NCBI GenBank assembly: GCA_905236455.1
Contig: CAJOPT010000073.1
Coordinates: 1-64,000 of the forward strand
Reading direction: 5' to 3'
Length of the DNA: 64,000 nt
Source of the DNA: an uncultured Prevotella sp.
Lineage (GTDB): Bacteria > Bacteroidota > Bacteroidia > Bacteroidales > Bacteroidaceae
The notes under the pieces are model-generated. The model saw only the letters and a program-made list of their open reading frames with translations. It did no database searches and had not been told where the DNA came from. Position 1 is the first letter of the stretch. Every line of letters begins with the position of its first letter. This document shows positions 1,003-28,799 of this stretch, in pieces. The translations under genes and the position numbers were made by a program.

Positions 1003-1135
1003 AAGTCTGCCGTCAATGTCGGCAGACTCATAGACAATGTTTTATCAGACTTCCGCCACGGACGGAAGTCTGCCGTCAATGTCGGCAGACTCATAGACAA
1101 TGTTTATCATACTCCCGTCCAAGACGGGAGTATGT
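1003..1135. repeat. Palindromic element family 1 (hairpins A-B-A-B'), intergenic copy
   Basis: GTCTGCCG-TCAATGT-CGGCAGAC, linker TCATAGACAATGTTTTATC, GACTTCCG..CGGAAGTC; unit repeated with 63-bp period (1005 to 1068). Confidence 0.95.
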
Positions 1136-1141
1136 GGTTTT
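1109..1141 (+). terminator. Probable terminator formed by last hairpin of the repeat (CATACTCCCGTC-CAA-GACGGGAGTATG followed by GGTTTTTT)
   Basis: 12-bp perfect stem, 3-nt loop, T-rich tract. Confidence 0.6.
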
Positions 1142-1144
1142 TTA

Positions 1145-2044
1145 TTACACCAGATGTGGTATAAGATCTTCGCGATTCCCAGGTAGCATGTCAATAACAG
1201 GAATCTCCACCATTGTGTAGCAACCAGGTTGCAGACGCATTGAGGCTCGTGCCACATTGACAAGGACCTGTGCCGTAAGAGCCGGGTTGTTGATACTCAT
1301 GTTGAATTCCAGACGTTGGTTTTGAGTCTTGCCGCTTACACCTTTGCGTACAAGATTCACGCCATGTCCCATATCTTTTACCTCATCAACAGAAGGAACG
1401 GCAAAGACATGTGTCTCATCATTTGCGAAATATGGGTCAGCCTTAATGTCCTTTGTGACATCTTCCAGTTTGGCTCCGTCCTCTAACTCCACATAAACCA
1501 TGCGGCGGTGGATTCCCTCGCCAAGAGGGATGGTCATTGACAAGGCATCCTTAACACCTTTCTTTGACCGTACACAGACGCTATGTCCCATTGACATACC
1601 TGGTCCGAAATTGGTATAGCTGAGTCCTTTTGGAGCCAGACTTTGCATCAGTGTGCGTACTACGGAATCAGAACCCGGATCCCATCCAGCTGCTATAACG
1701 CTTACCTTTCCTGCTTCCTTGCATATCGGCATCATCTCCTGACGGTAGTCAAGTATGCTGGTATGGATGTCAAAGGAGTCTACGGTGTTGATTCCTTGTG
1801 GGATAATGGCTTTGGCATATTCAGGACATGAGCGTGTTGGTGTGGCGAGTATAGCCACGTCGACGTTCTTGAGTTCTTTTATGTCCTTTACTACAGGATA
1901 GTTTGCTAATTCTGCTGGTTTGTTTTCCGCACCTTTACGGCGTACCACTCCTGCTATCTCGAAATCAGGAGAAGCCTCAAGTGCTTCTATTGTAAACTTT
2001 CCAATGTTTCCGTAGCCAACTACGGCTGCTCTAATTTTTTCCAT
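1145..2044 (-). CDS. ddh: meso-diaminopimelate D-dehydrogenase
   Basis: N-terminal MEKIRAAVVGYGNIGKFTIEAL and whole-length similarity by eye to Ddh. Confidence 0.9.
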   Translation of the reverse strand: MEKIRAAVVGYGNIGKFTIEALEASPDFEIAGVVRRKGAENKPAELANYPVVKDIKELKNVDVAILATPTRSCPEYAKAIIPQGINTVDSFDIHTSILDYRQEMMPICKEAGKVSVIAAGWDPGSDSVVRTLMQSLAPKGLSYTNFGPGMSMGHSVCVRSKKGVKDALSMTIPLGEGIHRRMVYVELEDGAKLEDVTKDIKADPYFANDETHVFAVPSVDEVKDMGHGVNLVRKGVSGKTQNQRLEFNMSINNPALTAQVLVNVARASMRLQPGCYTMVEIPVIDMLPGNREDLIPHLV

Positions 2045-2180
2045 ATCGGTTGTGTTGTTAAGTTGTTAAAATCTTGGTTTCGGTTGCAAAATTACACTTT
2101 TTCTGTTAAATACGACACGTTATGCATGGAATTTTTGCAAAATGTTATACAGATGGACTTTTGGAAGCGATAATTCTATA

Positions 2181-2280
2181 AAGTCTGCCGTCAATGTCGG
2201 CAGACTCATAGACAATGTTTTATCAGACTTCCGCCACGGACGGAAGTCTGCCGTCTGCGGCGGCAGACTCTTAGACAGAT
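2181..2280. repeat. Palindromic element family 1, intergenic copy between ddh and ruvA
   Basis: A-linker-B-A arrangement; GTCTGCCG at 2183 and 2246 (63-bp period). Confidence 0.95.
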
Positions 2281-2411
2281 ACAGAATTAATCAAAATGAG
2301 AATCTTGTAAAAGAAACTAAATAAATGCAATAAAGTGGGCTGAAAGACGTTATTGTTAACGTATATATACAATTTAGGTTAGAGTTTAGAATTAAGAATG
2401 AAGAATTTTCA

Positions 2412-3029
2412 ATGATAGAATATATCAGGGGCGAGTTGGCTGACCTGACACCGGCGCTTGCTGTTATAGAGGCTGCTGGAGTTGGGTATGCGCTTAACAT
2501 TTCGCTCAATACTTATACTGCCATACAAGGCAAGAAGGATGTGAAACTTTATGTTCATGAGTCCTTGGTAACGGGTGGACGCGACGACTCATTCACCCTT
2601 TATGGCTTTTTCAATCAGCAAGAACGGACTCTCTACCGCCAACTTATAACAGTAAGTGGGGTGGGAGCGAACACTGCTCGGATGATTCTCTCGTCGTTGA
2701 CACCTGCAGAGTTATGCAATGTCATTGCCAATGGTGATGAGCGTATGCTCAAAGGCGTCAAAGGTATTGGGATGAAGACAGCCCAGCGCATTATAGTAGA
2801 TCTTAAAGATAAAATATTATCGTTGGGTATCGCTGATGAAATCCATGCCGGGGGGCAGTCTGGTAGCGTGGCTGTAGACCATGCGGTAAGGGATGAGGCT
2901 GTTTCTGCATTGACAATGCTTGGGTTCTCGCCTGCTCCTTCGGCAAAAGTTGTCACTTCTATCTTGAAGGCACATCCGGATATTCCTGTGGAACAGGTTG
3001 TCAAGATGGCGTTGAAAGAAATTAAATAA
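2412..3029 (+). CDS. ruvA: Holliday junction branch migration complex subunit RuvA
   Basis: MIEYIRGELADLTP..., helix-hairpin-helix motifs GVGANTARMILSSL and GIGMKTAQRIIVDLKDK. Confidence 0.95.
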   Translation: MIEYIRGELADLTPALAVIEAAGVGYALNISLNTYTAIQGKKDVKLYVHESLVTGGRDDSFTLYGFFNQQERTLYRQLITVSGVGANTARMILSSLTPAELCNVIANGDERMLKGVKGIGMKTAQRIIVDLKDKILSLGIADEIHAGGQSGSVAVDHAVRDEAVSALTMLGFSPAPSAKVVTSILKAHPDIPVEQVVKMALKEIK

Positions 3030-3071
3030 AAAGCCTCCCCCCAACATTTTCTTGGGTGGGACTTTTGAGTT

Positions 3072-6000
3072 ATGAATACGGCTAAAAAGATATGGCTCAT
3101 TGTGCTGGTGTTGCTGTGTGTCAGCTTACTGGCTGTGGGAGGGCTCCGCTCAAGGGAGTCTGCCTTCTTTAGTGGCAGACTCTTAGACAATGTTTATAGA
3201 GCTCTCGCCACGGACGGCAGACTCTTAGACAATGTTTTATCAGACTTCCGCCACGGATGGGAGTCTGCCGGGGCTGTTCCAGCTGATACCGCCAGAAACA
3301 AGAAGATAAACATGCCGGAGGTGGAAATTGATGAGGAGGAGATTCCTGACTCTCTGCTTCACCCACGGTGGCCGGTACAACGTACCACTCCTATCACATT
3401 CGGCGACCTCGATCAAGGCTCATACGACTTGCAGCGTCCTGAGAATATGAAGCAGACAGTGGAGTATAACGACACTCTCGGGATGTATATCATAGGTAAC
3501 AAGATAGGTGGTACTTATGTGGAAGCTCCGATTATGATGACTCCGGAGGAATACCGGAAGTGGAGTGAGAAACGTAGTTTTTCAGATTATTATCGCTCTA
3601 AGAACCAGGAAATCCTACAGACACAAGGTAAGGAGAAATTTGATTTCACCGACATGCACTTCTCTTTAGGTCCCGCGGAGAAAATATTCGGTCCTGGCGG
3701 AGTGCGAATAAAGACTCAGGGAACGGCTGAGCTAAAGTTTGGTGCTACGCTTAAAAATATTGATAACCCGTCGTTGCCTATCCGTAACAGGAAGACTACT
3801 ACGATGGACTTCGATGAGAAGATAAATCTTAACGTGAATGGTAAGGTCGGTGACAAGGTAAACATGAATCTGAACTATAACACAGATGCGACCTTTGATT
3901 TTGACTCACAGAACCTTAAACTGAAGTATGATGGTAAGGAGGATGAGATTATAAAACTTGTGGAAGGCGGCAACATCTCTTTCCCGTCAAATAACTCCTT
4001 GGTGAGGGGAGCCAGCTCGTTGTTTGGTCTTCGTACAGACCTGCAGTTCGGCAAGCTGAAGCTACAGACAGTGCTGTCGCAGAAGAAGTCCAACTCAAAG
4101 AGCGTGTCTTCTAAGGGAGGTGTGCAACTCACTCCCTTTGAGATAGATGTCGCCGATTATGAGGAGAACCGCCACTTCTTTCTTTCCCAATATTTCCGGA
4201 GTAGGTATGACGACGCAATGAAGACCCTTCCCAATGTACTGACAGGTATCAATATTAATCGTATTGAGGTTTGGGTAACAAACAAGACCGGGACAACAAC
4301 GAATACCCGTGACATTATTGCTTTAGCTGACTTGGGTGAAGGCTCACCTAATGTATTGCCGTCGAACTCAAGTAATAATATATATAATAATGTGAAATCA
4401 CTTCCCAACGTACGTGATATCGATCAGGCAAGCCAGGCACTGCAAGGTATAGGTATGTCAGGAGGTTCTGATTTCGAAAAGCTCTCAAGTGCCCGTCTGC
4501 TTAACAGCTCAGAATATACTATCAATAAGGAGCTTGGATATATTTCCTTGAAGACAGCTTTGCAGACCGATCAGGTGTTGGCTGTCGCGCTGGAGTATAC
4601 AGCCGGTGGTGTTACATATCAGGTTGGTGAGTTTGCGTCGGATATCAATGATGTAAACAGCGCATTGATAGTAAAGTCTCTGAAAAATACGAGTAACAAC
4701 CCTCATCAGAGCAACTGGGGGCTGATGATGAAGAACGTGTATTACCTTGCCTCATCAGTCCAGAAAGAGAAGTTCCGCTTGGATGTGAAGTTCCAAAGTG
4801 ATACTGCGGGTGTATATATATCCTACATACCTGAGCCGCAGGTTAAGGATATGACCATTATCAAACTGTTGGGAGCTGATCGCCTTGACAATAACAACCG
4901 GACGCATCCTAATGGATATTTTGATTTCGTAGAAGGATATACCGTCTCTAACGGACGAGTATTCTTCCCATCGGCAGAGCCTTTTGGCAGCTATATGTAT
5001 AGCTATCTTGTGTCAAAGGGAATCTCTGCAGACAAAGCTGCGCAATATGCTTTTACAGAGTTATATGACTCAACGAAGACGGTAGCCAAGCAGATTGCGG
5101 AGAAAGACAAGTACACTCTTGTCGGTCAGTTTAAGGGGACGTCAGCTAACGTTATCTCTCTTGGGGCATATAATGTGCCACAGGGTTCAGTAGTTGTTAC
5201 GGCAGGTGGTGTAACCCTGAGCGAAGGTTCTGATTATACCGTTGACTATTCCGCAGGAGAGGTTACGATTCTTAATCAAAGTATTATTGATGCCGGTACG
5301 TCTGTAAATGTCTCTTTGGAAAGTAATACCGATTACGCCCAGTCTCGTAAGACAATGTTAGGAGTGAACTGGGAATACGATTTCTCTAAGAACTTCCAGA
5401 TAGGTGGTACGCTGCAACATCTTACAGAGCAGGCCTTGACGACTAAGGTTGCAATGGGAAGTGAACCTCTGAAGAATACTATATGGGGACTGAATGTCAA
5501 TTGGAAGAAAGAAAGCCAATGGCTTACGAATCTTCTTGATAAAATACCATTCCTGCATGTTACGCAGCCATCGAATATATCTTTCTCGGCAGAGTTTGCT
5601 CAATTGATAGCTGGACAGAGTCACGGCACACAGGACAATGCCTCTTATCTTGATGACTTTGAGAATACGAAGAATGCCATTGATGTAAGTGCGCCGACAT
5701 CATGGATAATCTCCAGCGTGCCGTCACTGTTCAAGAACGATGCTTCTTACATTAATGACCTGCAAGGCGGATATCATCGTAGTTTGCTTGCATGGTATAA
5801 TATTGACCCATTGTTTACACGACGCTCTTCATCTCTTACACCGTCGCACATAAAGAGTGACATAGAGCAGTTGAGTAACCATTATGTCCGCGAGGTTTAT
5901 GTCAGTGAGCTTTATCCAAACCGTGATCAAAGCTCTTATAATGGAGCAACCTCGACGTTGCCCATCCTGAACCTTGCCTACTATCCTACAGAACGTGGAC

Positions 6001-9000
6001 CGTATAACTTTAACCCAAATCTTGATAACAGAGGAAGGCTAAGTTCTCCAAAGGACAATTGGGGCGGTATGATGCGTAAGTTGGATACCAATGATTTTGA
6101 GACTGCCAATATAGAATATATTGAGTTCTGGCTTCTCGACCCGTTCATCTATTCAAGTAAGCAGGCAGATGCGTCTTCATACGGAGGTGACCTGTATATC
6201 AACCTTGGTGAGATGAGCGAGGACATCTTACGTGATGGTAAGAAATTCTATGAGAGCGGTATGGCTGTTGATGGTACGCAGAGCTATACAGAGACGAACT
6301 GGGGACGTATTCCTACGCAGGCAACTGTGACATATGCTTTTGCTACGACCTCTGGCAGTCGTTCGTTACAGGATGTTGGTTTCAACGGATTAACTGATGA
6401 GCAGGAACGGCAATTCGGATCATATCAGGCTTTCCTAAACAGTCTTAATGTTGATCAGGATGTGCGTGACTCTATCATGGCAGACCCAGCTAATGATAAT
6501 TACCATTATTTCCGCGGTAGTGACTATGACCAAGTTCAGGCATCAATCCTCCAACGATACAAACGAATCAACAACCCTCAAGGAAACTCACCGGATAGTG
6601 ATACTCGCAGTGAGAGCTATGACACATCATATAAGACAACGCCAGACGTTGAGGATATCAATCAGGACTATACGTTGAATGAATATGAGAAATACTATCA
6701 GTATAAAGTGTCTTTGCGTCCTGAGGATATGGTGGTAGGCGAGAACTTCATCGTTGACAAGCGTGTGGCAACACCGCCGCTTCGCAATGGCAATCCAGAT
6801 AATGAGAAGGTTACCTGGTATCAATTCCGTATACCTCTTAGGGAATATACTAATAAGGAAGGCTCGATAAACGACTTTACGAGCATTCGATTCATGCGTA
6901 TGTTTCTTACTGGTTTTGAAAAACCGATAGTATTGCGATTTGGAAGCTTGGATCTCGTCCGTGGCGAGTGGCGCGTATATGAGCAGAATCTCACTAACTC
7001 GGCATCCACTTCTGGACGTATGGCTGTCAGTGCAGTCAATATTGAAGAAAACAACGACAAGACCCCTGTAAACTATGTCTTACCTCCGGGTATTGAGCGT
7101 GCTCAAGATCCTACACAGCCACAACTTGTGGAGGCTAATGAACAGGCTCTTGCCATGACAGTGACCAATCTTGGCACAGGTGAGTCGAAGGCTGTGTATA
7201 AAAACACTACGGTTGACCTTCGTCAGTATAAACGCTTGCAAATGTTTGTACATGCCAATGCCATGGAGCAGAATGTTACGAATCTTACAGATAACCAATT
7301 GGCAGTGTTTGTACGACTTGGCAGTGATTACAAGAATAACTATTATGAGTATGAGATACCATTGAAGCTCACACCTCCTGGTGTGTATGACAAGTATTCT
7401 CGTGCCGGTTGTGAGGCTGTATGGCCGGAAGTTAATATGCTTGATATATCACTTTCGGTATTAACATCCCTGAAGAAGCAGCGTAATCAGGCAAAGGCGG
7501 CAGGAACAGCAAGTTATAACCGTGAGTTTAGCATATACGATGAGAATCGTCCTGGAAACAAGATAACGATTATGGGTAATCCTACTCTTGGTGAGGTGAA
7601 GACAATGATAATCGGTGTGCGCAACCTTGCGGGAGAGGAGAAGACCGGTGAAGTGTGGGTAAATGAACTTCGTTTGCTTGAATACACCAATCAAGGCGGA
7701 TGGGCTGCTCAAGGAACGTTACAGGTACAGATGTCTGACTTTGGAAGCCTGAATCTTCAAGGACGGTATATCACAGAAGGCTTCGGAGGATTGGAGGAAG
7801 GCGTCAGTCAACGTTCAAAATCTAATGATGGCAGCTATACCGTGACCACTAATCTTGAACTTGGTAAATTCTTCCCAGACAAGGCAAAAGTGTCGGCACC
7901 ATTGTACTTCAGTGTAAGCAATGAGGAGTCCCGGCCTAAGTATAATCCATTGGATACTGATATGGAGCTTAAGGATGCTCTCGATGCAATGGATACCAGA
8001 GAACGTGACTCCTTAGAGGCAATAGCTGTAACTAAGGTGTTTAACCGAAACTTCTCATTGTCGAACGTCAGGGTTGGAATAGCCACAAAAGGACATCCTA
8101 TGCCTTACGACCCTGCGAATTTCTCTTTTACATATAGTCACTCCCATAATCATACCAGTGGAGAGACAACTGTATATGAAAATGAGGATAACTGGCGGGG
8201 TTCCATCAACTATTCATGGACACCTGTGTATAAAGCATGGGAACCATTCAAGAAGATAAAGAGCAAGTCAAAGTGGTTTGACCTATTTAAGCGCTTTGGA
8301 TTTAACTGGCTGCCGCAGAACCTTACGTTCAATACCGAAATGATACGCTACTATAAGGAATTGCAAGAGCGTGACATGGAAAGTACTGAGGGAACGTCAC
8401 TGCCTTTGATCTTTGATAAGCAGTTCCTTTGGAACAGGGAATTCTCCTTGCGATGGGACCTTACGAAGAATTTCCACTTCAACTTCCGTAGTGCTACTCA
8501 TGCTGAGATAGAGGAACCGTATGCACCAGTGAACAAAGACCTCTATCCTGACCGTTATGCGGCATGGAAGGATTCTGTGATGACAAGTATAAGGAATCTT
8601 GGAACACCATTGGATTATAACCAGACAGTGACAGCATCATATCAGCTTCCACTGAATCAGATACCGATACTTGACTGGGTGAATGCCGATGCCAATTATA
8701 ATTCAACATATACATGGTTGCGTGGAACAGACCTTGAGGATGGAACGTCGCTTGGCAATTCTATTACCACAAACCGTACAGTGAATCTCAACGGTACGCT
8801 GAACATGGAGAAACTTTACAATCATTTCCCATTCTTAAAGAAGACCAATGACCGTTTCAACAAGACTAATCGTTCATCTAACAAGCGAAACACCAAGAAG
8901 AATGGCGATAAGAAAGGCAAAGATGATAGCAAAGGAAAGGATGGTAATGGTGGTAAGGAAGGAAAAGACGAGAACTCCGGAAAGGATAACAAAAAGAAGG

Positions 9001-10740: not shown

Positions 10741-10741
10741 T

Positions 10742-12544: not shown

Positions 12545-14011
12545 ATGAATAAGAATTTGTTTTTGGCTTTTCTTGTTACGGCCTTAATGGTTCTTTCTGC
12601 TCAGGCACAGAGAGTAAGAACAATACAGCCAGATACAATACCGGCGCAAATGGTATCGCAGGATGATTGTGAGCCTTTGCCAAATGAAGAATTATCTTTC
12701 GGGTTACCTGCCGCAGACGCGACGATGCAAACCGATTCTTCATTTCTTGTGTCTGCCGTCTGCGGCGGCAGACACATAGACAATGTTTTATCAGACTTCC
12801 GCCACGGACGGAAGTCTGCCGTCTGCGGCGGCAGACACATAGACAATGTTTTATCAGACTCCCGACACGGACGGGAGTCTGCCGAATGGGACCGGTTGTT
12901 GCGTTGCCGTCTTGACGCACTGTTGAATGACCCGCTTTTTGAGACCACACAGCTTGGACTGATGGTATGGGACTTGACAGCAGACTCATGTGTGTATAAG
13001 CACAATGAGCGACAGCGTATGCGTCCTGCCTCAATAATGAAGAACCTGACTGCGGTGACAGCCATTGATGTCCTTGGGTTGGATTATCAGTTTAAGACCT
13101 CCCTCTATTACAAAGGAATGATAATTGACAGTCTCCGTACACTTGCCGGTGACATTTACTGTATCGGCGGCATGGATCCGAAGTTCGGGAGTAAGGATAT
13201 GTCTGCCTTTGTGCAGGCAATCAAGTCTTTGGGTATAGACACTATCAGGGGGAGTATCAGTTTTGATGACTCTTTCAAGGATAAAGACCGGTTAGGGTAT
13301 GGCTGGTGTTGGGATGATGACAATCCTGTTCTGACGCCTTTGCTTTGTGACAAGAAGGATGAGTTCTCATTGAGGTTCCTGAGCGAATTGCGCAGGGCGG
13401 GCATCATTATGATTGGTGGGGGAGTACAAAATTCCACAGTACCTATAGGGTCAAGCAAACTCATATGTGAACGGCGGCATTCCATAAAGGAGATTATTAC
13501 GCAGACACTCAAGGAAAGCGACAATCTCTTTGCCGAATCGTTGTTTTATAACATCGCAGCTGCTACTAGTAATAAAGGGATATCCAAAGGAGCCTCTTCG
13601 AAACAAGCCCGCACAGCCGTGAGGCAGGTACTTGCCAAGGCAGGGGTAAACACCAGTGAGGATGATATTGCAGATGGCTCCGGACTCTCCTTGTATAATT
13701 ACGTTACGCCAAACCTGGAAGTACAGTTGTTGAGATATGCATGGAGACACAAGGATATTTATGCGTTCTTGTCTACCGCTTTGCCTGTCGCAGGTGTCGA
13801 TGGGACTCTGAAGAGTCGGATGAAGAACACAGCCGCATGGAAAAAGATATTCGCAAAGACAGGCACTGTTACTGGTGTGAGCTCTCTTGCCGGATATGCG
13901 CAGGCTGCCAATGGGCATGTCTTATGTTTCTGTATCATTAACCAGGGAATAAGTAAAACCAGTGACGGCAGGCGCTTCCAAGACAAAGTGTGTGCCGCCA
14001 TGTGTCAATAA
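12545..14011 (+). CDS. dacB: D-alanyl-D-alanine carboxypeptidase/endopeptidase (PBP4 family)
   Basis: RPASIMKNLTAVTAI (SxxK), ESDNLFAESLF (SxN), AKTGTVTGVSSLAGY (KTG); signal peptide. Confidence 0.88.
   Translation: MNKNLFLAFLVTALMVLSAQAQRVRTIQPDTIPAQMVSQDDCEPLPNEELSFGLPAADATMQTDSSFLVSAVCGGRHIDNVLSDFRHGRKSAVCGGRHIDNVLSDSRHGRESAEWDRLLRCRLDALLNDPLFETTQLGLMVWDLTADSCVYKHNERQRMRPASIMKNLTAVTAIDVLGLDYQFKTSLYYKGMIIDSLRTLAGDIYCIGGMDPKFGSKDMSAFVQAIKSLGIDTIRGSISFDDSFKDKDRLGYGWCWDDDNPVLTPLLCDKKDEFSLRFLSELRRAGIIMIGGGVQNSTVPIGSSKLICERRHSIKEIITQTLKESDNLFAESLFYNIAAATSNKGISKGASSKQARTAVRQVLAKAGVNTSEDDIADGSGLSLYNYVTPNLEVQLLRYAWRHKDIYAFLSTALPVAGVDGTLKSRMKNTAAWKKIFAKTGTVTGVSSLAGYAQAANGHVLCFCIINQGISKTSDGRRFQDKVCAAMCQ
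12683..12744. repeat. Element family 2 (AATGAAGAAT ... ATTCTTCATT, 10-bp terminal inverted repeats), in-frame in dacB
   Basis: About 80% identical by eye to 21917-21979; perfect 10-bp TIR. Confidence 0.8.
12751..12884 (+). repeat. Palindromic element family 1, two units, in-frame inside dacB (SAVCGGRHIDNVLSDFRHGRKSAVCGGRHIDNVLSDSRHGRESAEW)
   Basis: GTCTGCCG at 12751 and 12814 (63-bp period). Confidence 0.95.
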
Positions 14012-14061: not shown

Positions 14062-15870
14062 ATGAACAAACAAAGGATTATTGAATGTGTCCCGAATTTC
14101 AGCGAGGGGCGCGATATGAATGTTATCAAGCAGATTACCGATGTTATTGAGGCTGTAGAAGACGTTAAGCTGCTTGATGTTGATCCGGGAGAAGCAACCA
14201 ATCGTACCGTAGTTACTTTTGTAGGCTCTCCCGAGGCAGTTGTAGAGGCAGCCTTCCAGGCAGTGGCAAAAGCAGGACAACTTATTGACATGCGGAAACA
14301 TCATGGCGCTCACCCGCGTATGGGAGCGACAGATGTCTTACCTCTGATTCCTGTCACTGGCATAACCTTAGAGGAATGTGCAGAGCTGGCACGGCAGCTG
14401 GCGCATCGTATTGCCGATGAACTGAGAATTCCATGCTACTGTTATGAAGCCGCCGCTTATACCCCGGAGCGTAAAAACCTTGCCGTATGTAGAGAGGGTG
14501 AGTATGAAGCTTTGAAGGAAAAGCTTACTACAGAAGGAAAACAGCCAGACTGCATGCCTGATATTAGTGAGCAGTCTGCCGTCATAGATTCGCATTTCAT
14601 GCAGACAGGCTGTACGGCTGTGGGTGCCCGTGACTTCCTGATTGCCGTAAACTTTAATCTTAACACCACTTCTACCCGTCGCGCCAACGCCATTGCGTTT
14701 GATGTGCGGGAGAAAGGTCGTCCCATGCGTGAAGGCAATCCCATTACAGGTAAGATCCTTCGTTATGAGAACGGTGAGCCTATTATGAGACCAGGAACGT
14801 TGAAGTGCACAAAAGCCATTGGCTGGTATATTGATGAATATGGTATTGCACAGGTGTCAATGAATATTACAAATCTGAATGTCACTCCGTTGCATGTGGC
14901 TTTTGACGAGGTCTGCCGTTGTGCCTCAAATCGTGGTGTTCGTGTAACAGGAACAGAGATCGTCGGCCTTATTCCCAAAAAGACCTTGATTGATGCGGGG
15001 AAGTATTTTTTAGAGAAGCAACATCGTTCAACTGGTATCCCTGAAGCGGACATCGTAAAGATTGCGGTCAAGTCAATGGGACTCGATGACTTCTGTCCGC
15101 GGCAGAAGTCATATAAAACATCGTGTCTGTCGCCACAGACGACAGACTGGAAACCTTTCAATCCCAAAGAGAAGGTTATTGAGTATATGCTTGAAGACGA
15201 TAATAAAGAAACGCATAGACTGGTTGATCTGACTGCAAAAGAGTTTGCTGAGGAAACTTCAAGAGAGAGTCCTGCTCCTGGCGGTGGTACGATAGCCGCC
15301 TATATTGGAGCATTGGGTGCCGCGTTGGGTACAATGGTTGCCAACCTGTCGAGCCATAAGGCAGGATGGGATGACCGCTGGCAAGAGTTCAGCCGTTATG
15401 CTGACCAAGGTCAGGAACTGATGTCAGAGCTTTTACGTCTGGTAGATGAAGACACGGAGGCTTTCAATCGTATAATGGCAGCCTTTGGTATGCCTAAGAA
15501 TACAGATGAAGAGCGACAGGTCCGCTCTGCTGCGATACAGGAGGCTACGCTCTATGCCGCACAGGTGCCTTTGCGAACAATGAAAGCGTCATTACGTGTC
15601 TTTGAGCTCTGTCGAGTCATGGCAGAGACAGGGAATCCTAACAGCGTCAGTGATGCTGGCGTGGGAGCCTTGGCAGCCCGTGCAGCTGTATTGGGTGCCG
15701 GCTTGAATGTGAAAATCAATGCGGGGTCTTTAAAGGCTACAAAGTCTAATAGTCTGCCGCCGCAGACGGCAGATATGGCAACTCAACTCATCGACGAGGC
15801 AGACTCCTTAATAAAGATTGCTAATGCGGAGGAGACCGCTGTTATGGAAATCGTAAACTCAAAACTCTGA
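14062..15870 (+). CDS. ftcD: Bifunctional glutamate formimidoyltransferase / formimidoyltetrahydrofolate cyclodeaminase
   Basis: IIECVPNFSEGRD N-terminus, C-terminal cyclodeaminase domain ESPAPGGGTIAAYIGALGAAL. Confidence 0.93.
   Translation: MNKQRIIECVPNFSEGRDMNVIKQITDVIEAVEDVKLLDVDPGEATNRTVVTFVGSPEAVVEAAFQAVAKAGQLIDMRKHHGAHPRMGATDVLPLIPVTGITLEECAELARQLAHRIADELRIPCYCYEAAAYTPERKNLAVCREGEYEALKEKLTTEGKQPDCMPDISEQSAVIDSHFMQTGCTAVGARDFLIAVNFNLNTTSTRRANAIAFDVREKGRPMREGNPITGKILRYENGEPIMRPGTLKCTKAIGWYIDEYGIAQVSMNITNLNVTPLHVAFDEVCRCASNRGVRVTGTEIVGLIPKKTLIDAGKYFLEKQHRSTGIPEADIVKIAVKSMGLDDFCPRQKSYKTSCLSPQTTDWKPFNPKEKVIEYMLEDDNKETHRLVDLTAKEFAEETSRESPAPGGGTIAAYIGALGAALGTMVANLSSHKAGWDDRWQEFSRYADQGQELMSELLRLVDEDTEAFNRIMAAFGMPKNTDEERQVRSAAIQEATLYAAQVPLRTMKASLRVFELCRVMAETGNPNSVSDAGVGALAARAAVLGAGLNVKINAGSLKATKSNSLPPQTADMATQLIDEADSLIKIANAEETAVMEIVNSKL
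15086..15148 (-). repeat. Palindromic element family 1, in-frame at the linker between the two ftcD domains
   Basis: GACTTCTG-TCCGCGG-CAGAAGTC then ATATAAAACATCGT then GTCTGTCG-CCACAGA-CGACAGAC; 63 bp. Confidence 0.85.
15743..15774 (-). repeat. Half-element (hairpin A) of family 1, in-frame in ftcD (SNSLPPQTAD)
   Basis: GTCTAATAGTCTGCCGCCGCAGACGGCAGA identical to part of the GH95 copy. Confidence 0.9.
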
Positions 15871-15921: not shown

Positions 15922-17949
15922 ATGATACCACAAGATTTTAGAAAAGACATACAGGAAGGAATACCTTCTTATCTGCCAGAGAAACAAGAATATGACAAGC
16001 GAGTTAGCCATGCTCCGAAACGTAAGGATATCCTAACTTTGGAGGAGAAAAAACTTGCTATGCGTAATGCATTGAGATATTTCCCAAAAGAACTGCATTC
16101 TCAATTGGCTCCTGAATTCATGGAGGAGTTGAAAGACTATGGACGTATCTACATGTATCGTTATCGTCCTACGTATAAGATGTATGCTCGTCCTATAGAT
16201 GAGTATCCACATAAGAGCAAGCAGGCTGCTGCCATCATGATGATGATACAAAACAATCTCGACCCTTGTGTGGCACAACATCCCCATGAGCTTATCACTT
16301 ATGGTGGTAATGGGGCTGTATTCCAGAACTGGGCCCAGTACAGACTTGTGATGAAGTATCTTAGCGAAATGACCGACGAGCAGACATTAGTTATGTATTC
16401 CGGTCATCCTCTGGGGCTGTTCCCGTCTCACAAGAATGCGCCGCGTGTAGTCGTAACCAATGGCATGGTGATACCCAACTACTCTAAGCCTGATGACTGG
16501 GAGCGCGATAATGCTTTAGGAGTGAGCCAGTACGGACAAATGACCGCAGGCTCGTATATGTATATCGGACCACAGGGAATTGTTCATGGAACAACTATAA
16601 CTGTATTGAATGCGGCAAGACGATTGAAGTCCCGCCACGGACGGGAGTCTGATGGTTCTGATCGTATTCCTCTATTTGTTACCGCAGGACTTGGTGGTAT
16701 GTCGGGTGCGCAACCTAAGGCTGGCAATATCGCTGGGGTTGTAAGTGTAACTGCTGAAATAAATCCACTTGCAGCTGGAAAGCGTTATGAGCAGGGGTGG
16801 GTTGATGAGTTGCATGACAACCTTGACGAACTTATACCTGCGATTATCAAGGCAGTCGCTGAGAAACGCGTTGTCTCAATGGCATATGTGGGTAATGTTG
16901 TGGATCTTTGGGAACGACTTGCGGAAGAACATATACATGTGGACTTGGGCAGTGACCAGACATCACTTCATAATCCATGGGCAGGAGGATATTACCCTGT
17001 TGGACAAACTTTCGAAGAGTCGCAACGTATGATGGCTGACAATCCGGCATTGTTCAAGGAGAAGGTTCAGGAATCTCTACGTCGCCAAGTGTCTGCAATC
17101 AACCGATTGGCGGAAGATGGAATGTATTTCTTTGATTATGGTAATGCTTTCTTGTTGGAGTCAGGCAGAGCTGGAGCTGATGTGTTTTCTGATAATTCCA
17201 AATCTGTTTTCCGCTATCCGTCATATGTTCAGGATATCATGGGACCGCTGTTCTTCGACTATGGTTTCGGACCTTTCCGTTGGGTATGCTCGTCGGGTGA
17301 TCCAAAAGATTTGGAAGTCACCGATCGTCTGGCAGCCGAAGTCTTGTCAGAGATGCTTGACACGGCACCCTCTGATATTCAAGGACAGCTGGCAGATAAC
17401 CTTCACTGGATACTTGAGGCGGGAAAAAACCACTTGGTTGTTGGCTCGCAGGCACGCATTCTATACGCAGATGCTGAAGGTAGGACAAAGATAGCTTTGG
17501 CATTCAATGACGCTATTCGCCGCGGTGAGATCAGCCGTCCTGTCGTATTGGGACGTGACCATCATGATGTGTCAGGTACAGACTCACCATTCCGTGAAAC
17601 TTCCAATATCTATGATGGCTCTCAGTTCTGTGCCGACATGGCAGTGCAGAATGTTATAGGTGATGCCTTCCGTGGAGCCACGTGGGTTAGTATACATAAT
17701 GGCGGTGGCGTAGGCTGGGGTGAAGTTATCAACGGTGGCTTTGGTATGGTCATCGATGGAAGTGAGGATGCTGACCGTCATATCCGTAATATGTTGTTCT
17801 GGGACGTTAATAATGGCATAGCCCGTCGCTCATGGGCGAGAAATAAAGGTTCAATTGATGCCATACGTCGCGAGATGGCTCGCACACCTAATCTAAAGGT
17901 TACACTTCCTAACTTGGTAGATGATAGTATAATAGAAGGGTGCTTCTAA
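15922..17949 (+). CDS. hutU: Urocanate hydratase
   Basis: TYGGNGAVFQNWAQYRLVMKYLSEM, FVTAGLGGMSGAQPKAG, DQTSLHNPWAGGYYPVG. Confidence 0.95.
   Translation: MIPQDFRKDIQEGIPSYLPEKQEYDKRVSHAPKRKDILTLEEKKLAMRNALRYFPKELHSQLAPEFMEELKDYGRIYMYRYRPTYKMYARPIDEYPHKSKQAAAIMMMIQNNLDPCVAQHPHELITYGGNGAVFQNWAQYRLVMKYLSEMTDEQTLVMYSGHPLGLFPSHKNAPRVVVTNGMVIPNYSKPDDWERDNALGVSQYGQMTAGSYMYIGPQGIVHGTTITVLNAARRLKSRHGRESDGSDRIPLFVTAGLGGMSGAQPKAGNIAGVVSVTAEINPLAAGKRYEQGWVDELHDNLDELIPAIIKAVAEKRVVSMAYVGNVVDLWERLAEEHIHVDLGSDQTSLHNPWAGGYYPVGQTFEESQRMMADNPALFKEKVQESLRRQVSAINRLAEDGMYFFDYGNAFLLESGRAGADVFSDNSKSVFRYPSYVQDIMGPLFFDYGFGPFRWVCSSGDPKDLEVTDRLAAEVLSEMLDTAPSDIQGQLADNLHWILEAGKNHLVVGSQARILYADAEGRTKIALAFNDAIRRGEISRPVVLGRDHHDVSGTDSPFRETSNIYDGSQFCADMAVQNVIGDAFRGATWVSIHNGGGVGWGEVINGGFGMVIDGSEDADRHIRNMLFWDVNNGIARRSWARNKGSIDAIRREMARTPNLKVTLPNLVDDSIIEGCF
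16627..16652 (+). repeat. Half-element (hairpin B) of family 1, in-frame in hutU (LKSRHGRESDG)
   Basis: AAGTCCCGCCACGGACGGGAGTCTGA. Confidence 0.85.
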
Positions 17950-17998: not shown

Positions 17999-19510
17999 AT
18001 GATACACCAGATTACAGCCGATCATCTAACCATAGAGCATATCGGTGAGATAATAGAAAGCAATAGTAAGTTAGAACTTAGCGAAGATGCTAAACAGCGT
18101 ATAAAGAGATGTCGTTCTTATCTGGATAAGAAGATCAGTAGCAATGGTGAACCTATTTATGGCGTAACTACAGGGTTTGGATCTCTTTGCAATGTCAGTA
18201 TAGGAAAAGACCAGTTGTCAAAGCTTCAAATCAACCTTATAAAGTCACATGCATGTGGTACTGGCGAGCGAGTACCTAACGTAATCGTGAAGATTATGTT
18301 GTTACTGAAGATACAGTCACTGAGCTATGGCTATTCAGGATGCAAACTGGATACGGTGCAGCGGCTTATTTCTTTTTTCAATAACGATATTTATCCAGTC
18401 GTCTACAAGCAAGGTTCGTTAGGAGCATCTGGCGATCTCGTGCCTTTGGCTCATCTGTGCCTGCCATTGGTGGGTTTGGGTGAAGTGGAATATCAGGGAC
18501 GAATTATAAATGGCGCTGAGATTCTACGCAAAAAGCGTTGGAAGCCGATAGAGTTAGCTTCCAAGGAAGGGCTGGCATTACTTAATGGTACACAGAATAT
18601 GAGTGCCTTTGCGGTGTGGTCTTTGTTACAGGCACAGCGGTTGAGCGATTGGGCAGATAAAATTGCCGCAATGTCACTCGATGCTTATGATGGACGTATT
18701 GAGCCATTTATACATGCCGTACATGCTGTTCGTCCTCATCAAGGTCAGATAGAGACCGCCAAGCGCATGCGTGAGCTGTTGGAAGGTAGCCAAATTCTCA
18801 ATAACGTCAAGGCTCATGTGCAGGATCCGTATTCTTTCCGTTGTGTGCCTCAGGTGCATGGTAGTGTGAAAGACACAATCCGCTATGTGAAGTCAGTAAT
18901 AGACATAGAGATAAATTCAGCGACAGATAATCCTACGGTATGTCCTGATGAAGATTTGGTAATTTCTGCCGGTAACTTCCATGGTGAACCGATAGCATTA
19001 CCTATTGACTTTTTATCAATAGCCATGAGCGAGCTCGCAAATATCTCAGAACGACGAATCTACCGATTAGTATCAGGAACGCGTGGGTTGCCGAACTTCC
19101 TTGTGGCAAATCCTGGTGTGAACAGTGGATTTATGATTACACAATATACGGCAGCGTCGGTAGTAAGCCTAAACAAGTCACTGGCGATGCCATCATCGGT
19201 AGATAGCATACCGTCATGTCAAGATCAGGAAGATCATGTGTCAATGGGTGCGAATGCGGCAATCAAATTGTATAAGGTGATAAAAAACACTGAGCGTGTG
19301 CTCGCAATAGAATTGTTCAATGCCGCACAAGCTCTGGATTTCCGTTTGCCACTGCGCTCGTCAGCGCAGATATGCAATATTCATGCGGAATATAGGAAAG
19401 TTGTTCCGTTTATATTGAACGATGAACTGATGTATCCATATATAGAGAAATCTATTGAATTTCTGAGGACTCCCGTCTGCGGCGGGAGTTCTATAAAACA
19501 TTGTCTATGA
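17999..19510 (+). CDS. hutH: Histidine ammonia-lyase; C-terminus encoded by repeat
   Basis: GSLGASGDLVPLAHLCLPLVG (MIO ASG motif); SAGNFHGEP; stop codon lies in repeat. Confidence 0.93.
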   Translation: MIHQITADHLTIEHIGEIIESNSKLELSEDAKQRIKRCRSYLDKKISSNGEPIYGVTTGFGSLCNVSIGKDQLSKLQINLIKSHACGTGERVPNVIVKIMLLLKIQSLSYGYSGCKLDTVQRLISFFNNDIYPVVYKQGSLGASGDLVPLAHLCLPLVGLGEVEYQGRIINGAEILRKKRWKPIELASKEGLALLNGTQNMSAFAVWSLLQAQRLSDWADKIAAMSLDAYDGRIEPFIHAVHAVRPHQGQIETAKRMRELLEGSQILNNVKAHVQDPYSFRCVPQVHGSVKDTIRYVKSVIDIEINSATDNPTVCPDEDLVISAGNFHGEPIALPIDFLSIAMSELANISERRIYRLVSGTRGLPNFLVANPGVNSGFMITQYTAASVVSLNKSLAMPSSVDSIPSCQDQEDHVSMGANAAIKLYKVIKNTERVLAIELFNAAQALDFRLPLRSSAQICNIHAEYRKVVPFILNDELMYPYIEKSIEFLRTPVCGGSSIKHCL

Positions 19511-19596
19511 GTCTGCCGCCGCAGACGGCAGACTCCCATCTGCGGCGGGAGTCTGATAAAACATTGTCTATTAGTCTGCCGCCGCAGACGGCAGAC
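19468..19596 (-). repeat. Palindromic element family 1, two units, overlapping the 3' end of hutH
   Basis: GACTCCC at 19468 and 19531 (63-bp period); hairpins A and B. Confidence 0.95.
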
Positions 19597-19643: not shown

Positions 19644-20948
19644 ATGAGGCTATTAATAAAGAACATCCGGACGATAGCTGGCATCGACTCAGAGAAACGT
19701 CATTTCCGGCAAGGTGCAGAAATGGCAGTTACGGAATATCTGAATGATGCCTGGCTTTATGTTGAGAATGGTATAATAAAAGATTATGGCACTGGCGAAT
19801 TCAATGATATTGAAAGTGAATCAATAATCGAGTACGATGCCGGTGGTGGCATGGTTCTGCCTTCATTCTGCGACTCTCATACCCATCTTGTATATGCTGG
19901 TAGTAGGGAGGGAGAGTTTGTTGATAAGATACGAGGATTGAGCTATGCAGAGATTGCTCGTCGTGGTGGCGGCATACTCAATTCGGCTGATCGCCTGCAT
20001 GAGCTTACAGAGGACGAGTTGTATGAGCAGGCAAAGTTACGGGTTTCTGAAATTATCCATAAAGGTACGGGTGCTGTTGAAATAAAGAGTGGCTATGGTT
20101 TGAATACTGAGGATGAGCTGAAGATGCTTAGAGTAATCAGGCGAATCAAAGACACTACACCTTTGAAGGTTGTAAGTACATTCCTTGGAGCTCATGCGGT
20201 GGGACGTGCTTATTCCGGCAGACAGTCTGACTATGTGGATTTAGTTGTAAATGAGATGATCCCAGAGGTAGGACGGCAGCATCTTGCTGATTTTATTGAT
20301 GTGTTCTGCGATAAAGGATTTTTCACTCCTGAAGAAACCTCTCGTATTTTGGAAGCTGGTGCCAAGTTCGGTTTACGTCCTAAGATACATGGTCAGGAAC
20401 TGGCTGACTCTGGCGGTGTGGAGGTGGCGTTGCGCTATCATGCGTTGTCGGTGGATCATTTAGAGAGTATGACCGATAGTGATATTAAACTGCTTCAGAG
20501 GCACTATGACAGTATTTCCACCTCGTCAGAGGTGTCGTGTAATAGCGTAACTATGCCTACAGCATTGCCAGGTACGTCATTCTTCCTTAACATGCCTTAT
20601 GCCCCTGCTCGTAAGATTATTGACAAAGGGTTGCCGTTAGCTATCGCAAGTGATTATAATCCAGGGTCAACTCCATCGGGTGACATGAAGTTCGTGATGT
20701 CATTGGCATGTATAAAAATGCGTATGATGCCGGTAGAAGCTTTTAATGCCGCTACATTAAACAGTGCCTGTGCGATGGGACTGAGCAGTGAATATGGCAC
20801 GATAACAAAGGGGAAAGTCGCTAATTTCCTTATAACAGAGCCTGTGCCTTCTCTTGACTTTATTCCATACGCTTATACCACACCGTTGATTAAAGAAGTG
20901 TTCCTGAGAGGAAATCGCCTTAGCGCTTTTACAAAGCGAAGCGACTAA
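19644..20948 (+). CDS. hutI: Imidazolonepropionase
   Basis: FCDSHTHLVYAGSREGEF, EIKSGYGL, ASDYNPGSTPSGDMKFVMSLACIKMRM. Confidence 0.94.
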   Translation: MRLLIKNIRTIAGIDSEKRHFRQGAEMAVTEYLNDAWLYVENGIIKDYGTGEFNDIESESIIEYDAGGGMVLPSFCDSHTHLVYAGSREGEFVDKIRGLSYAEIARRGGGILNSADRLHELTEDELYEQAKLRVSEIIHKGTGAVEIKSGYGLNTEDELKMLRVIRRIKDTTPLKVVSTFLGAHAVGRAYSGRQSDYVDLVVNEMIPEVGRQHLADFIDVFCDKGFFTPEETSRILEAGAKFGLRPKIHGQELADSGGVEVALRYHALSVDHLESMTDSDIKLLQRHYDSISTSSEVSCNSVTMPTALPGTSFFLNMPYAPARKIIDKGLPLAIASDYNPGSTPSGDMKFVMSLACIKMRMMPVEAFNAATLNSACAMGLSSEYGTITKGKVANFLITEPVPSLDFIPYAYTTPLIKEVFLRGNRLSAFTKRSD

Positions 20949-20954
20949 AAGAAA
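20914..20954. repeat. Repeat family 3 (ATCGCCTTAGCGCTTTTACAAAGCGAAGCGACTAAAAGAA), encodes HutI C-terminus NRLSAFTKRSD*
   Basis: Near-identical to 21-60. Confidence 0.85.
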
Positions 20955-20960: not shown

Positions 20961-21032
20961 CGGCAGACTTCCGTCTGTGGCGGAAGTCTGATAAACATTG
21001 TCTATGAGTCTGCCGCCGCAGACGGAAGACTC
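20961..21032 (-). repeat. Palindromic element family 1, intergenic copy downstream of hutI
   Basis: GGCAGACTTCCGTCTGTGGCGGAAGTCTGATAAACATTGTCTATGAGTCTGCCGCCGCAGACGGAAGACTC. Confidence 0.95.
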
Positions 21033-21916: not shown

Positions 21917-21979
21917 AATGAAGAATTCCCTTCGGTAGTTACCAGCCACTGATGCGACGGCGCAAGCCGATTCTTCATA
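21917..21979. repeat. Element family 2 intergenic copy (AATGAAGAATT ... ATTCTTCATA)
   Basis: Aligns along its length to 12683-12744. Confidence 0.8.
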
Positions 21980-21996
21980 AAAAAAAGAATATTTCT

Positions 21997-22028
21997 TTTT
22001 GTATTGTCTTCGGTTTTCCTTATCTTTG
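21997..22028 (+). promoter_or_regulatory. Bacteroidota promoter TTTG-N19-TATCTTTG; core nearly identical to dnaG promoter
   Basis: TTTTGTATTGTCTTCGGTTTTCCTTATCTTTG. Confidence 0.75.
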
Positions 22029-22051: not shown

Positions 22052-22162
22052 ATGAGGATATTTTTAAGAACAGCGGTAATAATGGTTGTTATACTGCAAA
22101 GTATTGTTGCTATTGCTCAGACTCCCGTCCGTGGCGGGAGTCTGATAAAACATTGTCTATGA
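22052..22162 (+). pseudogene. Orphan signal-peptide ORF MRIFLRTAVIMVVILQSIVAIAQTPVRGGSLIKHCL*, terminated by repeat
   Basis: Secretion signal followed directly by family 1 element; promoter upstream; not in the supplied ORF track. Confidence 0.55.
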
Positions 22163-22251
22163 GTCTGCCGCCGCAGACGGCAGACTCCCGTCCGTGGCGG
22201 GAGTCTGATAAAACAATGTCTAATGAGTCTGCCGCCGCAGACGGCAGACTC
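22119..22251 (-). repeat. Palindromic element family 1, two units, upstream of etfB
   Basis: AGACTCCCG at 22119 and 22182 (63-bp period). Confidence 0.95.
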
Positions 22252-22321
22252 TCTTCGCTTTAGCATTATCTTTGCACAAATCATTCAATGTGTGCGCATT
22301 TTGTTTGATTTTGTGCATTTT

Positions 22322-22354
22322 TTTTGTGTGTCAAGTAAAAAAGGCTTACCTTTG
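22322..22354 (+). promoter_or_regulatory. Probable promoter for etfB (TTTG ... TACCTTTG)
   Basis: Bacteroidota -33/-7 motifs. Confidence 0.6.
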
Positions 22355-22397
22355 CACCGCTTTTATAAAAGATTACACATTGTTTAATTAATAATTT

Positions 22398-23270: not shown

Positions 23271-23276
23271 AGAGAT

Positions 23277-24463: not shown

Positions 24464-24469
24464 AAGATT

Positions 24470-26176: not shown

Positions 26177-26190
26177 GAAAAGGAATCGTA

Positions 26191-26220
26191 AATAAGAGGG
26201 TGTGATCACACCCTCTTATT
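26191..26220. terminator. Perfect 30-bp palindrome AATAAGAGGGTGTGATCACACCCTCTTATT, likely terminator
   Basis: Self-complementary along full length, between convergent/tandem genes. Confidence 0.6.
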
Positions 26221-26249
26221 AATTTGTTCATTTTTATTTTGTTTTTACC

Positions 26250-28799
26250 ATGAGAAACTTATGTTTGTCTATTGTTTTTGGAATGATGAGTATAGTCTGT
26301 ATGGCACAGGCTAATAGTGTGTTGTGGTACGATAAACCAGCTGATAATTGGTGGGAAGCCCTTCCTGTAGGTAACGGAAGGTTGGCTGCAATGGTATATG
26401 GTGGTACGGCAGTAGAAGAGATTCAGTTCAATGAAGAAACCTTCTGGGCAGGTGGTCCATATGTAAATAATAGCCGTGAGGGTTTACCACATCTGCAGGA
26501 GGTGAGAAATCTTATTTTTCAGGGGCAGAACAAAGAAGCAGAGAAAATTCTCGACAGGTATTTCCTGACAGGTCAGAATGGCATGCGCTATCTTCCTTTG
26601 GCAAGTTTGGTGCTTGAGATGCCTGATGGGAAGTCTGATAAAATATTGTCTAATAGTCTGCCGCCGCAGACGGCAGACTTCCGTCCGTGTCGGAAGTCTG
26701 ATAAAATATTGTCTAATAGTCTGCCGCCGCAGACGGCAGACTATCGCAGAGAATTGAGTCTTGACGATGCTATAGCTACGACGCGTTTTAAGCATGTGGC
26801 TTCCTCTGTTACTTATGAGCGGAAGGTCTTTGCGTCATTGTCACAACCAGTTATTATTGTAACGATGAAAAGCAGCAAGCCAAAAGCTTTGGATTTGTTG
26901 GTGTCAATGCGCCCTGCCATGCCATCCGCGCGGAGTAGTGCCAATCATAATCAACTTCGTCTTATCTGTGACGGAGTCTCACAGGAAGGTGTTCCAGCGG
27001 CATTGCGGGCGGTAGCCTTGCTTGAGGCAGAGAGTGATGGTGTTCAGACTGTGGAAAATGAGAAGCTCAAGATAAGCAAAGCTACTCAGTTAACTCTATA
27101 TCTTACTGCAGCAACCAACTACGTTAACTTCCAAGATGTTTCCGGTAATCCGGAAAGGCAAACGGAGAACACTCTAAATGTTGTAAGAGGAAAAAGTGTC
27201 GATGCGCTGATGGCAGAGCATATCAGCCTCTATCATAAGCAATTTAATAGAGTATCTTTGCAGTTACCTTCTACGAGTCAAAGTCAGTTGCCTACAGATC
27301 AGCGCATAAAGAAATATTCGCAAGGTGGTGATGAGGCTCTGGCTGCTATGCTTTTCCAATATGGAAGATATCTGCTAATATCATCATCTCAGCCAGGTTG
27401 CCAGCCAGCCAATCTTCAAGGCAAATGGAATCATAACCCCAAGGCTGCCTGGGACAGCAAGTATACCACAAACATTAATCTGGAGATGAATTACTGGATG
27501 GCAGACGTGGCAGCCTTGCCGGAATGTCAGGAACCATTGTTCTCGCTTATCAAGGATGTCTCTGTAACAGGAGCGGAAACAGCGCGTATCCTGTGGGGAG
27601 CACGAGGGTGGGTGCTTCATCATAATACAGACTTGTGGCGTGCGACAGGACCTGTCGATGCCGCAAAGTATGGTATATGGCCAAATGGAGGTGGTTGGCT
27701 TGTACAGCATCTATGGCAGCATTATCTCTTCACTGGTGATAAGTCCTTTCTGAGAAAATGGTATCCAGTGATGAAAGGAGCTGCAGACTTCTACATATCT
27801 CATCTTGTCCGTCATCCGCAACATCCATGGCTGGTCACAGTGCCTTCCATGTCGCCTGAGCATGGTCCAGAAGGTACAAATACAAGTATTACCGCAGGGT
27901 GTACAATGGATAATCAGATAGCTTATGATGTATTGGAGAATACCCGTCAGGCTGCTGAGATACTGGGGGCAGATGTCAACTATTGTGATACGTTACAGCA
28001 TATCGCTGCTCAGCTTCCTCCCATGCAGATAGGACAATACGGACAGTTGCAAGAATGGATTCAGGATGCCGATGATCCAAATGATACCCACAGACATGTG
28101 TCACATCTCTACGGACTCTATCCAAGTAATCAGATTGGCCGTTATTCTACTCCAGAACTCTTTGAAGCAGCTAAGACAACACTGGTGCAGAGAGGGGATA
28201 TGGCGACAGGATGGAGCCTTAGCTGGAAGCTTTGTTTCTGGAGTCGGTTACAAGATGGGAACCATGTATATAAGATAATACGTAATCTTATAAATATACT
28301 GCCTAATGACAGTGTGCAAAAGCAGTATCCTAACGGAAGGACATATCCAAACATGTTAACGGCTCATCCGCCTTTCCAGATAGACTGTAACCTAGGTTAT
28401 ACTGCCGGGGTGGCTGAGATGTTATTACAAAGTCATGACGGTGCTGTACATCTTTTACCAGCATTGCCTGATGCATGGGCTGACGGAAAAGTGAAAGGGT
28501 TGCATGCCCGTGGAGGCTTTGTCGTTGATATGCAATGGAATTGTGGGAAAATTCAGAAAGCTGTAGTACATTCTACTATTGGTGGAGTCTTGCGTCTGCG
28601 CTCCGCCGTGCCGCTTTATGGAGAAGGACTTGTCAAGGCGAAAGGAGAATGTCCAAACTTATTGTTTCGCTCCTCAAGGATTCGGCAACCGCTTGTTAAT
28701 ACGAGTCCTTTGATACATAAGCCATTGCCGCTTGAGACTTATGAGTATGATCTCGAAACCATACCAGGTAGATCTTACAATATAAGATCGGGAGAGTGA
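26250..28799 (+). CDS. Glycoside hydrolase family 95 (alpha-L-fucosidase-like), secreted
   Basis: LWYDKPADNWWEALPVGNGRLAAMVYGG, NLQGKWNHNPKAAWDSKYTTNINLEMNYWMADVAALPEC. Confidence 0.92.
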   Translation: MRNLCLSIVFGMMSIVCMAQANSVLWYDKPADNWWEALPVGNGRLAAMVYGGTAVEEIQFNEETFWAGGPYVNNSREGLPHLQEVRNLIFQGQNKEAEKILDRYFLTGQNGMRYLPLASLVLEMPDGKSDKILSNSLPPQTADFRPCRKSDKILSNSLPPQTADYRRELSLDDAIATTRFKHVASSVTYERKVFASLSQPVIIVTMKSSKPKALDLLVSMRPAMPSARSSANHNQLRLICDGVSQEGVPAALRAVALLEAESDGVQTVENEKLKISKATQLTLYLTAATNYVNFQDVSGNPERQTENTLNVVRGKSVDALMAEHISLYHKQFNRVSLQLPSTSQSQLPTDQRIKKYSQGGDEALAAMLFQYGRYLLISSSQPGCQPANLQGKWNHNPKAAWDSKYTTNINLEMNYWMADVAALPECQEPLFSLIKDVSVTGAETARILWGARGWVLHHNTDLWRATGPVDAAKYGIWPNGGGWLVQHLWQHYLFTGDKSFLRKWYPVMKGAADFYISHLVRHPQHPWLVTVPSMSPEHGPEGTNTSITAGCTMDNQIAYDVLENTRQAAEILGADVNYCDTLQHIAAQLPPMQIGQYGQLQEWIQDADDPNDTHRHVSHLYGLYPSNQIGRYSTPELFEAAKTTLVQRGDMATGWSLSWKLCFWSRLQDGNHVYKIIRNLINILPNDSVQKQYPNGRTYPNMLTAHPPFQIDCNLGYTAGVAEMLLQSHDGAVHLLPALPDAWADGKVKGLHARGGFVVDMQWNCGKIQKAVVHSTIGGVLRLRSAVPLYGEGLVKAKGECPNLLFRSSRIRQPLVNTSPLIHKPLPLETYEYDLETIPGRSYNIRSGE
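26629..26742 (-). repeat. Palindromic element family 1, two units, in-frame inside GH95 gene (GKSDKILSNSLPPQTADFRPCRKSDKILSNSLPPQTADYRR)
   Basis: GTCTGATAAAATATTGTCTAATAGTCTGCCGCCGCAGACGGCAGACT twice; period 63 bp (26633, 26696). Confidence 0.95.

Follow-up and report, generated by a model that had tools for sequence, protein, structure and literature searches.

A 64,000-nt stretch of DNA from an uncultured Prevotella sp. (positions 1 to 64,000 of contig CAJOPT010000073.1, assembly GCA_905236455.1; hereafter the window, and its contig C73) carries a short palindromic element, made of two hairpins and a linker, that recurs inside and between genes there and elsewhere in the 2.57-Mb genome. The element is probably a non-autonomous, interspersed, species-private repeat that inserts at GAC/GTC, resembles REPINs (paired repetitive extragenic palindromic, or REP, sequences) in its construction, and behaves much like the Rickettsia palindromic elements (RPEs).

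In each unit, a conserved linker of about 20 nt (TCWTAGACAATGTTTTATCA) joins hairpin A (GTCTGCCG-N7-CGGCAGAC) to hairpin B (GACTYCCG-N7-CGGRAGTC), as seen by direct reading, by a repeat search, and by a linker scan. Hairpin A has a stem of 8 bp and a loop of 7 nt, and each hairpin spans 23 nt. Adjoining A and B stems have a GTC in common, and because of this three-base sharing, a unit of 66 nt recurs every 63 bp, measured from A to A or from B to B; the period is 62 or 64 bp in a few arrays. An initial annotation of the window had described this module, the shared GTC, and the 63-bp step, all of which are seen at the places it listed. It spoke of ten loci; the list actually contains eleven entries, of which the half copy at 16627-16652 is weak. 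When consensus B is reverse-complemented, it is the same as A at 18 of 23 positions, and the reverse-strand model matches at about 55 bits. Thus, the unit is an inverted pair with the layout REP-spacer-inverted REP. The predicted stability of the unit as single-stranded DNA is high, with folding z values of -5.5 to -8.5 and none of 200 shuffles equally stable. Genome-wide, the search pattern gave 51 matches vs 0 for a reversed control pattern, and a covariance model of the unit (R2), used for both the window and the genome scans, yielded E-values in the window down to 2.5e-24.

Pairing within the stems is conserved. Across 39 units, 98.4% of stem cells are paired and two-sided changes are found in 9 of 16 pairs, neither value being reached by 500 shuffles, and comparison of 47 mutually differing units gave 68 two-sided Watson-Crick changes, 26 G-T pairs, and 52 mismatches. 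Paired changes that preserve stems, along with the location of several copies at gene ends, would suit hairpins that act as RNA, for example in termination or mRNA stability, and are retained for that function while recombination or gene conversion spreads them. However, most copies lie within reading frames, in both orientations, and G-U pairs, the expected RNA intermediates, are fewer than the two-sided changes. The scarcity of these intermediates suggests that upkeep at the level of DNA fits better than selection on RNA. Rfam contains no match to the element, a result that also led to the rejection of a known RNA family, and a role as functional RNA seems very unlikely.

In the whole genome, R2 gives 143 matches on both strands, which resolve into 126 unit places in 99 arrays on 36 contigs, so the copies do extend beyond the window. 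Unit identity is 96% within arrays vs 74% between arrays, which indicates that arrays grew by local duplication; their origin by repeated independent insertion was rejected on the same values. The longest array, with nine hairpins, lies at 1081-1359 of contig C84 (L059) and has the inverted pair AAAAGCAAG / CTTGCTTTT on its flanks, as if a larger palindrome enclosed it in its loop. The copies are strongly clumped (chi-square 355 vs a maximum of 109 in 5,000 simulations), and contigs without any copy total 1.39 Mb. On C73, ten loci fall in the first 27 kb and none in the remainder of the 90-kb contig, where R2 found nothing convincing from 27 kb to 79 kb. Runs of local orientation (34 same, 18 opposite, p 0.04) are too weak for interpretation. 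Such clumping and such copy-free contigs, in an assembly of 140 contigs with a contamination of 2%, are features that an assembly artefact, or the binning of copies from another organism, could produce. This explanation is extremely improbable, given that copies reside in housekeeping genes, that orthologues from within the genus can be aligned on either side of them, and that dense and empty stretches occur together on one 90-kb contig.

Most of the arrays are intragenic. Of the 90 arrays with sequence context, 65 lie inside open reading frames (ORFs), while 12 fall between ORFs and 13 at their edges, where an ORF is any frame of at least 120 codons rather than an annotated or expressed gene. 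Since ORFs cover about 90% of the genome, this split argues for little gene avoidance. Intragenic copies are found in both orientations, and 25 of the 27 host ORFs that were scanned contain Pfam domains. The hosts include UvrD (two insertions), the A subunit of DNA gyrase/topoisomerase IV, DnaX, glutamate synthase, agmatine deiminase, FtcD, histidine ammonia-lyase (HutH), SprA, and GH95.

Alignment reveals that about 10 host genes have orthologues within the same genus that are free of the insert. FtcD reads GLDD-FCPRQKSYKTSCLSPQTTDW-KPF here and GLDDLKPF in the orthologues, which come mainly from metagenome-assembled genomes of Prevotella, those of the ruminant gut among them, and of allied bacteria; this makes the host of the element a Prevotella-type bacterium. 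Likewise, UvrD reads LLTDL-DSSQRRESSKTMSNSLPPQTAD-YEDV here and LLTDLDS.. elsewhere. Empty sites are also present in the orthologues of a U32 peptidase, DPP IV, a VanW-like protein, a protein of contig C2, and agmatine deiminase, and the orthologues of HutH are without the element-encoded C-terminal tail. For a BadF-type host protein with three insertions, no orthologue was found among 12 relatives. From the interspersed copies and these empty sites in other species, we infer that the element has moved. The possibility raised earlier, that the copies are old orthologous sequence, does not agree with the insert-free orthologues or with the lack of the family in every other genome searched.

Comparison of filled and empty sites indicates how the element may enter its target. 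The net gain is 57 nt for an array of 60 nt in FtcD, 60-63 for 66 in UvrD, 63 for 66 in the VanW-like protein, and 126 for 129 in the protein at C2:43492. In agmatine deiminase it is 63 for an array of 66 when the conserved FLT/LV is lined up by hand, and the ancestral site there would be CTGACTCTGGTT, judging from CTGACGCTTGTG in a relative. Because the net gain usually equals the array length minus 3, one GAC would already have been present at the target in most cases. Of the 59 multi-hairpin arrays, about half have the same triplet at both ends, which in all but one of these is GAC or GTC; the others mostly have an odd number of hairpins or an altered end. Three bases common at the junctions, together with imperfect terminal inverted repeats (GACTCCCG / GTCTGCCG), would also fit a miniature inverted-repeat transposable element (MITE) of a DDE insertion sequence, which makes a 3-bp target duplication and whose full-length parent has been lost or is unassembled. 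The assembly does end at copies on contigs C44, C74, C5, and C10, where a larger element could hide. However, the shared triplet is nearly always GAC/GTC and does not depend on the target, for which reason a variable target duplication was rejected. In addition, the two ends form separate hairpins that evolve independently of each other, and genome searches, aimed only at the Y1 family and the RAYT-like protein (see below), revealed no full-length element with such ends. A DDE origin is therefore unlikely.

The step of 63 bp corresponds to exactly 21 codons, and thus host genes can still be read through the insert. Four of the six consensus frames are open, and the frame that starts with GAC as Asp, giving a peptide of the type DSRPWRESDKTLSKSLPPQTA, is used in 22 of the 37 intragenic arrays with full units. 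This bias is as expected from insertion at in-frame GAC codons; tolerance of the peptide could also explain it.

Several results count against the reading of a mobile element that inserts at GAC. Among orthologues, a GAC at the exact junction is consistent for FtcD and UvrD only; of eight agmatine deiminases, one has it. For the latter enzyme, whose flank is variable, automatic alignment gives lengths of 51-81, and at the U32 peptidase site net gain and array are both 66, not 63. Arrays with unusual outer triplets usually have two differing ends, which suggests that the outer triplet is no ordinary free target duplication. Furthermore, A resembles the B of its own unit no more closely than the B of another unit. 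Each hairpin therefore seems to evolve separately, and maintenance of A and B as one long hairpin or inverted repeat was rejected, since partner matches are not above shuffled. Finally, the empty sites are those of other species; the intragenic counts derive from ORFs; and no enzyme is linked to the element.

The best candidate for a mobiliser, though less likely than not to be the right one, is a RAYT-like HUH protein. RAYTs (REP-associated tyrosine transposases) are Y1 HUH enzymes, and 2 RAYT-like genes are present in the genome, at C69:140-1159 and C1:1001-1534. The product of the C69 gene has 340 residues and an HUH motif, and matches NCBIfam REP_Tyr_transpos (E 1.7e-11) and Pfam Y1_Tnp (E 0.001), both below cut-off. 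The initial annotation had stated that the window contains no transposase, and the whole-genome Y1 search gave no match on C73. A link between the element and a RAYT is possible, and one could go further and consider the element to be a true REPIN or BIME (bacterial interspersed mosaic element) family, moved by a genome-encoded RAYT acting on single-stranded hairpins during replication. The REP-spacer-inverted REP layout, the triplets at the foot of the hairpins, the interspersed copies, the two genes themselves, and the presence of six arrays on C69 vs 1.3 expected are all in keeping with this. However, in this fragmented assembly the element was not found on the flanks of either gene, which instead bear other small repeats, different from each other, and the GTAG and CGTC tags of REP families are absent. 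The RAYT-like protein family is present in 70 of 120 genomes of the genus, none of which shows the element, and de novo searches of about 400 kb each from two RAYT-bearing relatives gave no comparable repeat family. Together, these results make membership in a RAYT-driven family doubtful. They also divide the comparison that the initial annotation had drawn: Rickettsia palindromic elements do fit the behaviour of the element, while the suggested RAYT partner is unsupported.

Other repeats were observed near the RAYT-like genes. A second small repeat, with the core CGCTTTYACAAAGCGAAGCGACTRAAAGAA, occurs in the window at 17-60 and 20910-20953, on contig C85 (L018) at 4-47, on C1 (L115) at 791-820, and on C92 (L086) at 571-728. 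It lengthens the C terminus of HutI, and its copy on C1 lies just upstream of the RAYT-like gene, of which it is a candidate cognate repeat. The RAYT-like gene of C69 (L001) is immediately followed, at 1326-1474, by a tandem, palindrome-containing repeat, TTACTCAGATTTTTAGATAAAATCT. A relative with many RAYT-like genes has a palindromic repeat of another kind, ATTCTAGGGGCTAGA (G141, L195, 5834-5946).

A mechanism for the preferred reading, a non-autonomous element inserting at GAC/GTC, can be proposed. A transposase acting in trans would mobilise the unit and insert it at a GAC on one strand. In each hairpin, the outer GAC and an internal GTC form the three base pairs at the foot of the stem, and so the internal arm could serve as a guide to the target. 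Guide sequences choose the target in IS200/IS605 elements. Once inserted, the unit would expand by tandem duplication in 63-bp steps, and since both insertion and added units would be frame-neutral and would encode the hydrophilic peptide DSRPWRESDKTLSKSLPPQTA, in-gene insertions could survive selection. A bolder version holds that the element is self-guided, its three internal foot bases pairing with GAC on single-stranded host DNA, and that 63 bp has been retained for its frame neutrality. This version is decidedly unlikely as things stand; if true, the element would be mobile DNA specialised for life within genes.

In the genomes searched, the element occurs in this species alone. Covariance-model scoring of the best 87 candidates per genome gave no copy of the family in any of 59 relatives, of which 35 belong to the same genus. 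The linker pattern, with one mismatch allowed, has no match in 397 other genomes of the genus, and the exact pattern has none in 84,980 GTDB species or in IMG/VR, collections that may themselves lack the source genome. A two-unit query matched no plasmid or phage record; carriage by a plasmid or phage was rejected on this result and the lack of a match in IMG/VR. No description matching the element was found in the literature searched, which, with the Rfam result, agrees with the initial annotation, in which the sequence was not recognised as a named family.

Among known systems, RPEs are closest in behaviour. As reviewed in two papers, which cite the original work of Ogata et al. (2000, 2002, 2005), RPEs and the protein-coding palindromes of Wolbachia are, like this element, short and lineage-private, lie in frame in many unrelated conserved genes, encode a recurring peptide, and have no established mobiliser (PMC2229807, PMC10969869). 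The element shares with RPEs its in-frame position in unrelated conserved genes and its recurring open-frame peptide. As described there, an RPE measures about 105-150 bp and has a single long stem-loop made by terminal repeats (PMC2229807, PMC10969869), whereas the Prevotella element has two separate 23-nt hairpins in a 63-bp unit and forms tandem arrays in 63-bp steps with a shared GAC triplet; on that description, it stands apart from the RPEs. The hosts differ as well, being obligate intracellular alphaproteobacteria for the RPEs, as these sources give them, and a Prevotella-type bacterium here.

REPs, REPINs, and BIMEs are closest in construction. Like the element, they comprise an inverted pair of short hairpins and a spacer, occur in more than 100 copies, and form dimers and arrays (PMC2817692, PMC3116915, PMC3733652), and their stem variants also have paired changes. 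Some dimers of REPs lie within genes, those for UvrA and UvrD/REP helicases among them, where they encode 20-30 amino acids (PMC3733652). However, REPs and REPINs are mainly extragenic, whereas 12 of the 90 arrays of the element are intergenic; REPs usually flank their cognate RAYT gene, and the element was not found beside either RAYT-like gene in this fragmented assembly; and the hairpins of one of its units evolve independently. It also lacks a GTAG/CGTC tag, its stem starts G(T/A)C, and its loop has 7 nt vs 4-5 in CGTC elements (PMC3733652); by the definitions in that work, tag and loop led to the rejection of membership in a CGTC or GTAG REP family. Two other repeats of the Bacteroidota are of interest. 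PINSR, a 188-bp repeat of the Prevotella intermedia/nigrescens group (PMC4755523), is likewise a high-copy, lineage-specific Prevotella repeat without an established mobiliser, but it is far from the 63-bp unit in length, intergenic, and without terminal inverted repeats. The BrickBuilt MITE of Porphyromonas gingivalis is similarly short and non-autonomous with tandem units (PMC4596501), but has another architecture and is reported to be strictly intergenic (PMC10969869). Thus, the element acts like an RPE and is built like a REPIN, and on the criteria examined it is assigned to neither.

Most known protein-coding palindromes come from Rickettsia and Wolbachia. The present family, with its roughly 100 arrays lying mostly within genes of a Prevotella-type bacterium, indicates that this lifestyle can also develop in bacteria that are not obligately intracellular, and that housekeeping proteins can acquire 21 or 42 residues in one step with the frame kept. 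A defined unit, a target triplet, and clean empty sites provide a system for the study of target choice, frame neutrality, and the mobiliser.

Copies of the palindromic element in the window (core coordinates from the hairpin scan and covariance model R2)
Position	Strand	Structure and location	Remarks
1005..1132	+	A-linker-B-A-linker-B, 2 units; outer triplets of second B altered to TAC/GTA	intergenic
2183..2268	+	A-linker-B-A and truncated linker	intergenic; first 66 bp identical to 1005-1070
3158..3265	+	degenerate two-unit array near N terminus of SprA ORF (3072-10718)	
12751..12879	+	two-unit array, in frame (VSAVCGGRHIDNVLSDFRHGRKSAVCGGRHIDNVLSDSRHGRE), within D-Ala-D-Ala carboxypeptidase ORF (12545-14011)	
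15088..15147	-	one unit, linker shortened to 14 nt, within FtcD (14062-15870)	
15752..15774	-	half copy, A hairpin, near FtcD C terminus; not in orthologues	R2 32.5 bits over 15726-15774
16630..16652	+	weak B-like hairpin in HutU	R2 only 14 bits, E 0.036; HutU orthologues length-variable there
19468..19596	-	two-unit array; element-encoded tail FLR-TPVCGGSSIKHCL-stop in place of HutH C terminus	
20966..21030	-	one unit just downstream of HutI	
22120..22249	-	two-unit array	intergenic
26630..26741	-	array with truncated first B, in frame (SDKILSNSLPPQTADFRPCRKSDKILSNSLPPQTADY), within GH95 ORF (26250-28799)	

Two further repeats lie in the window. A third repeat, about 41 bp in length (GTTACCNGCC..GCGACG..CCGATTCTTCAT), occurs at 12703-12743, within the carboxypeptidase ORF and directly before the array at 12751, and at 21938-21978, shortly before the array at 22120; it is also found on C2 (L002) at 10965-10996. 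In addition, a stretch of about 50 bp ending TATCTTTG is common to positions 21979-22028 and 28875-28924 of the window and to two other loci (L007 and L003), and is probably a common Bacteroidota promoter region.

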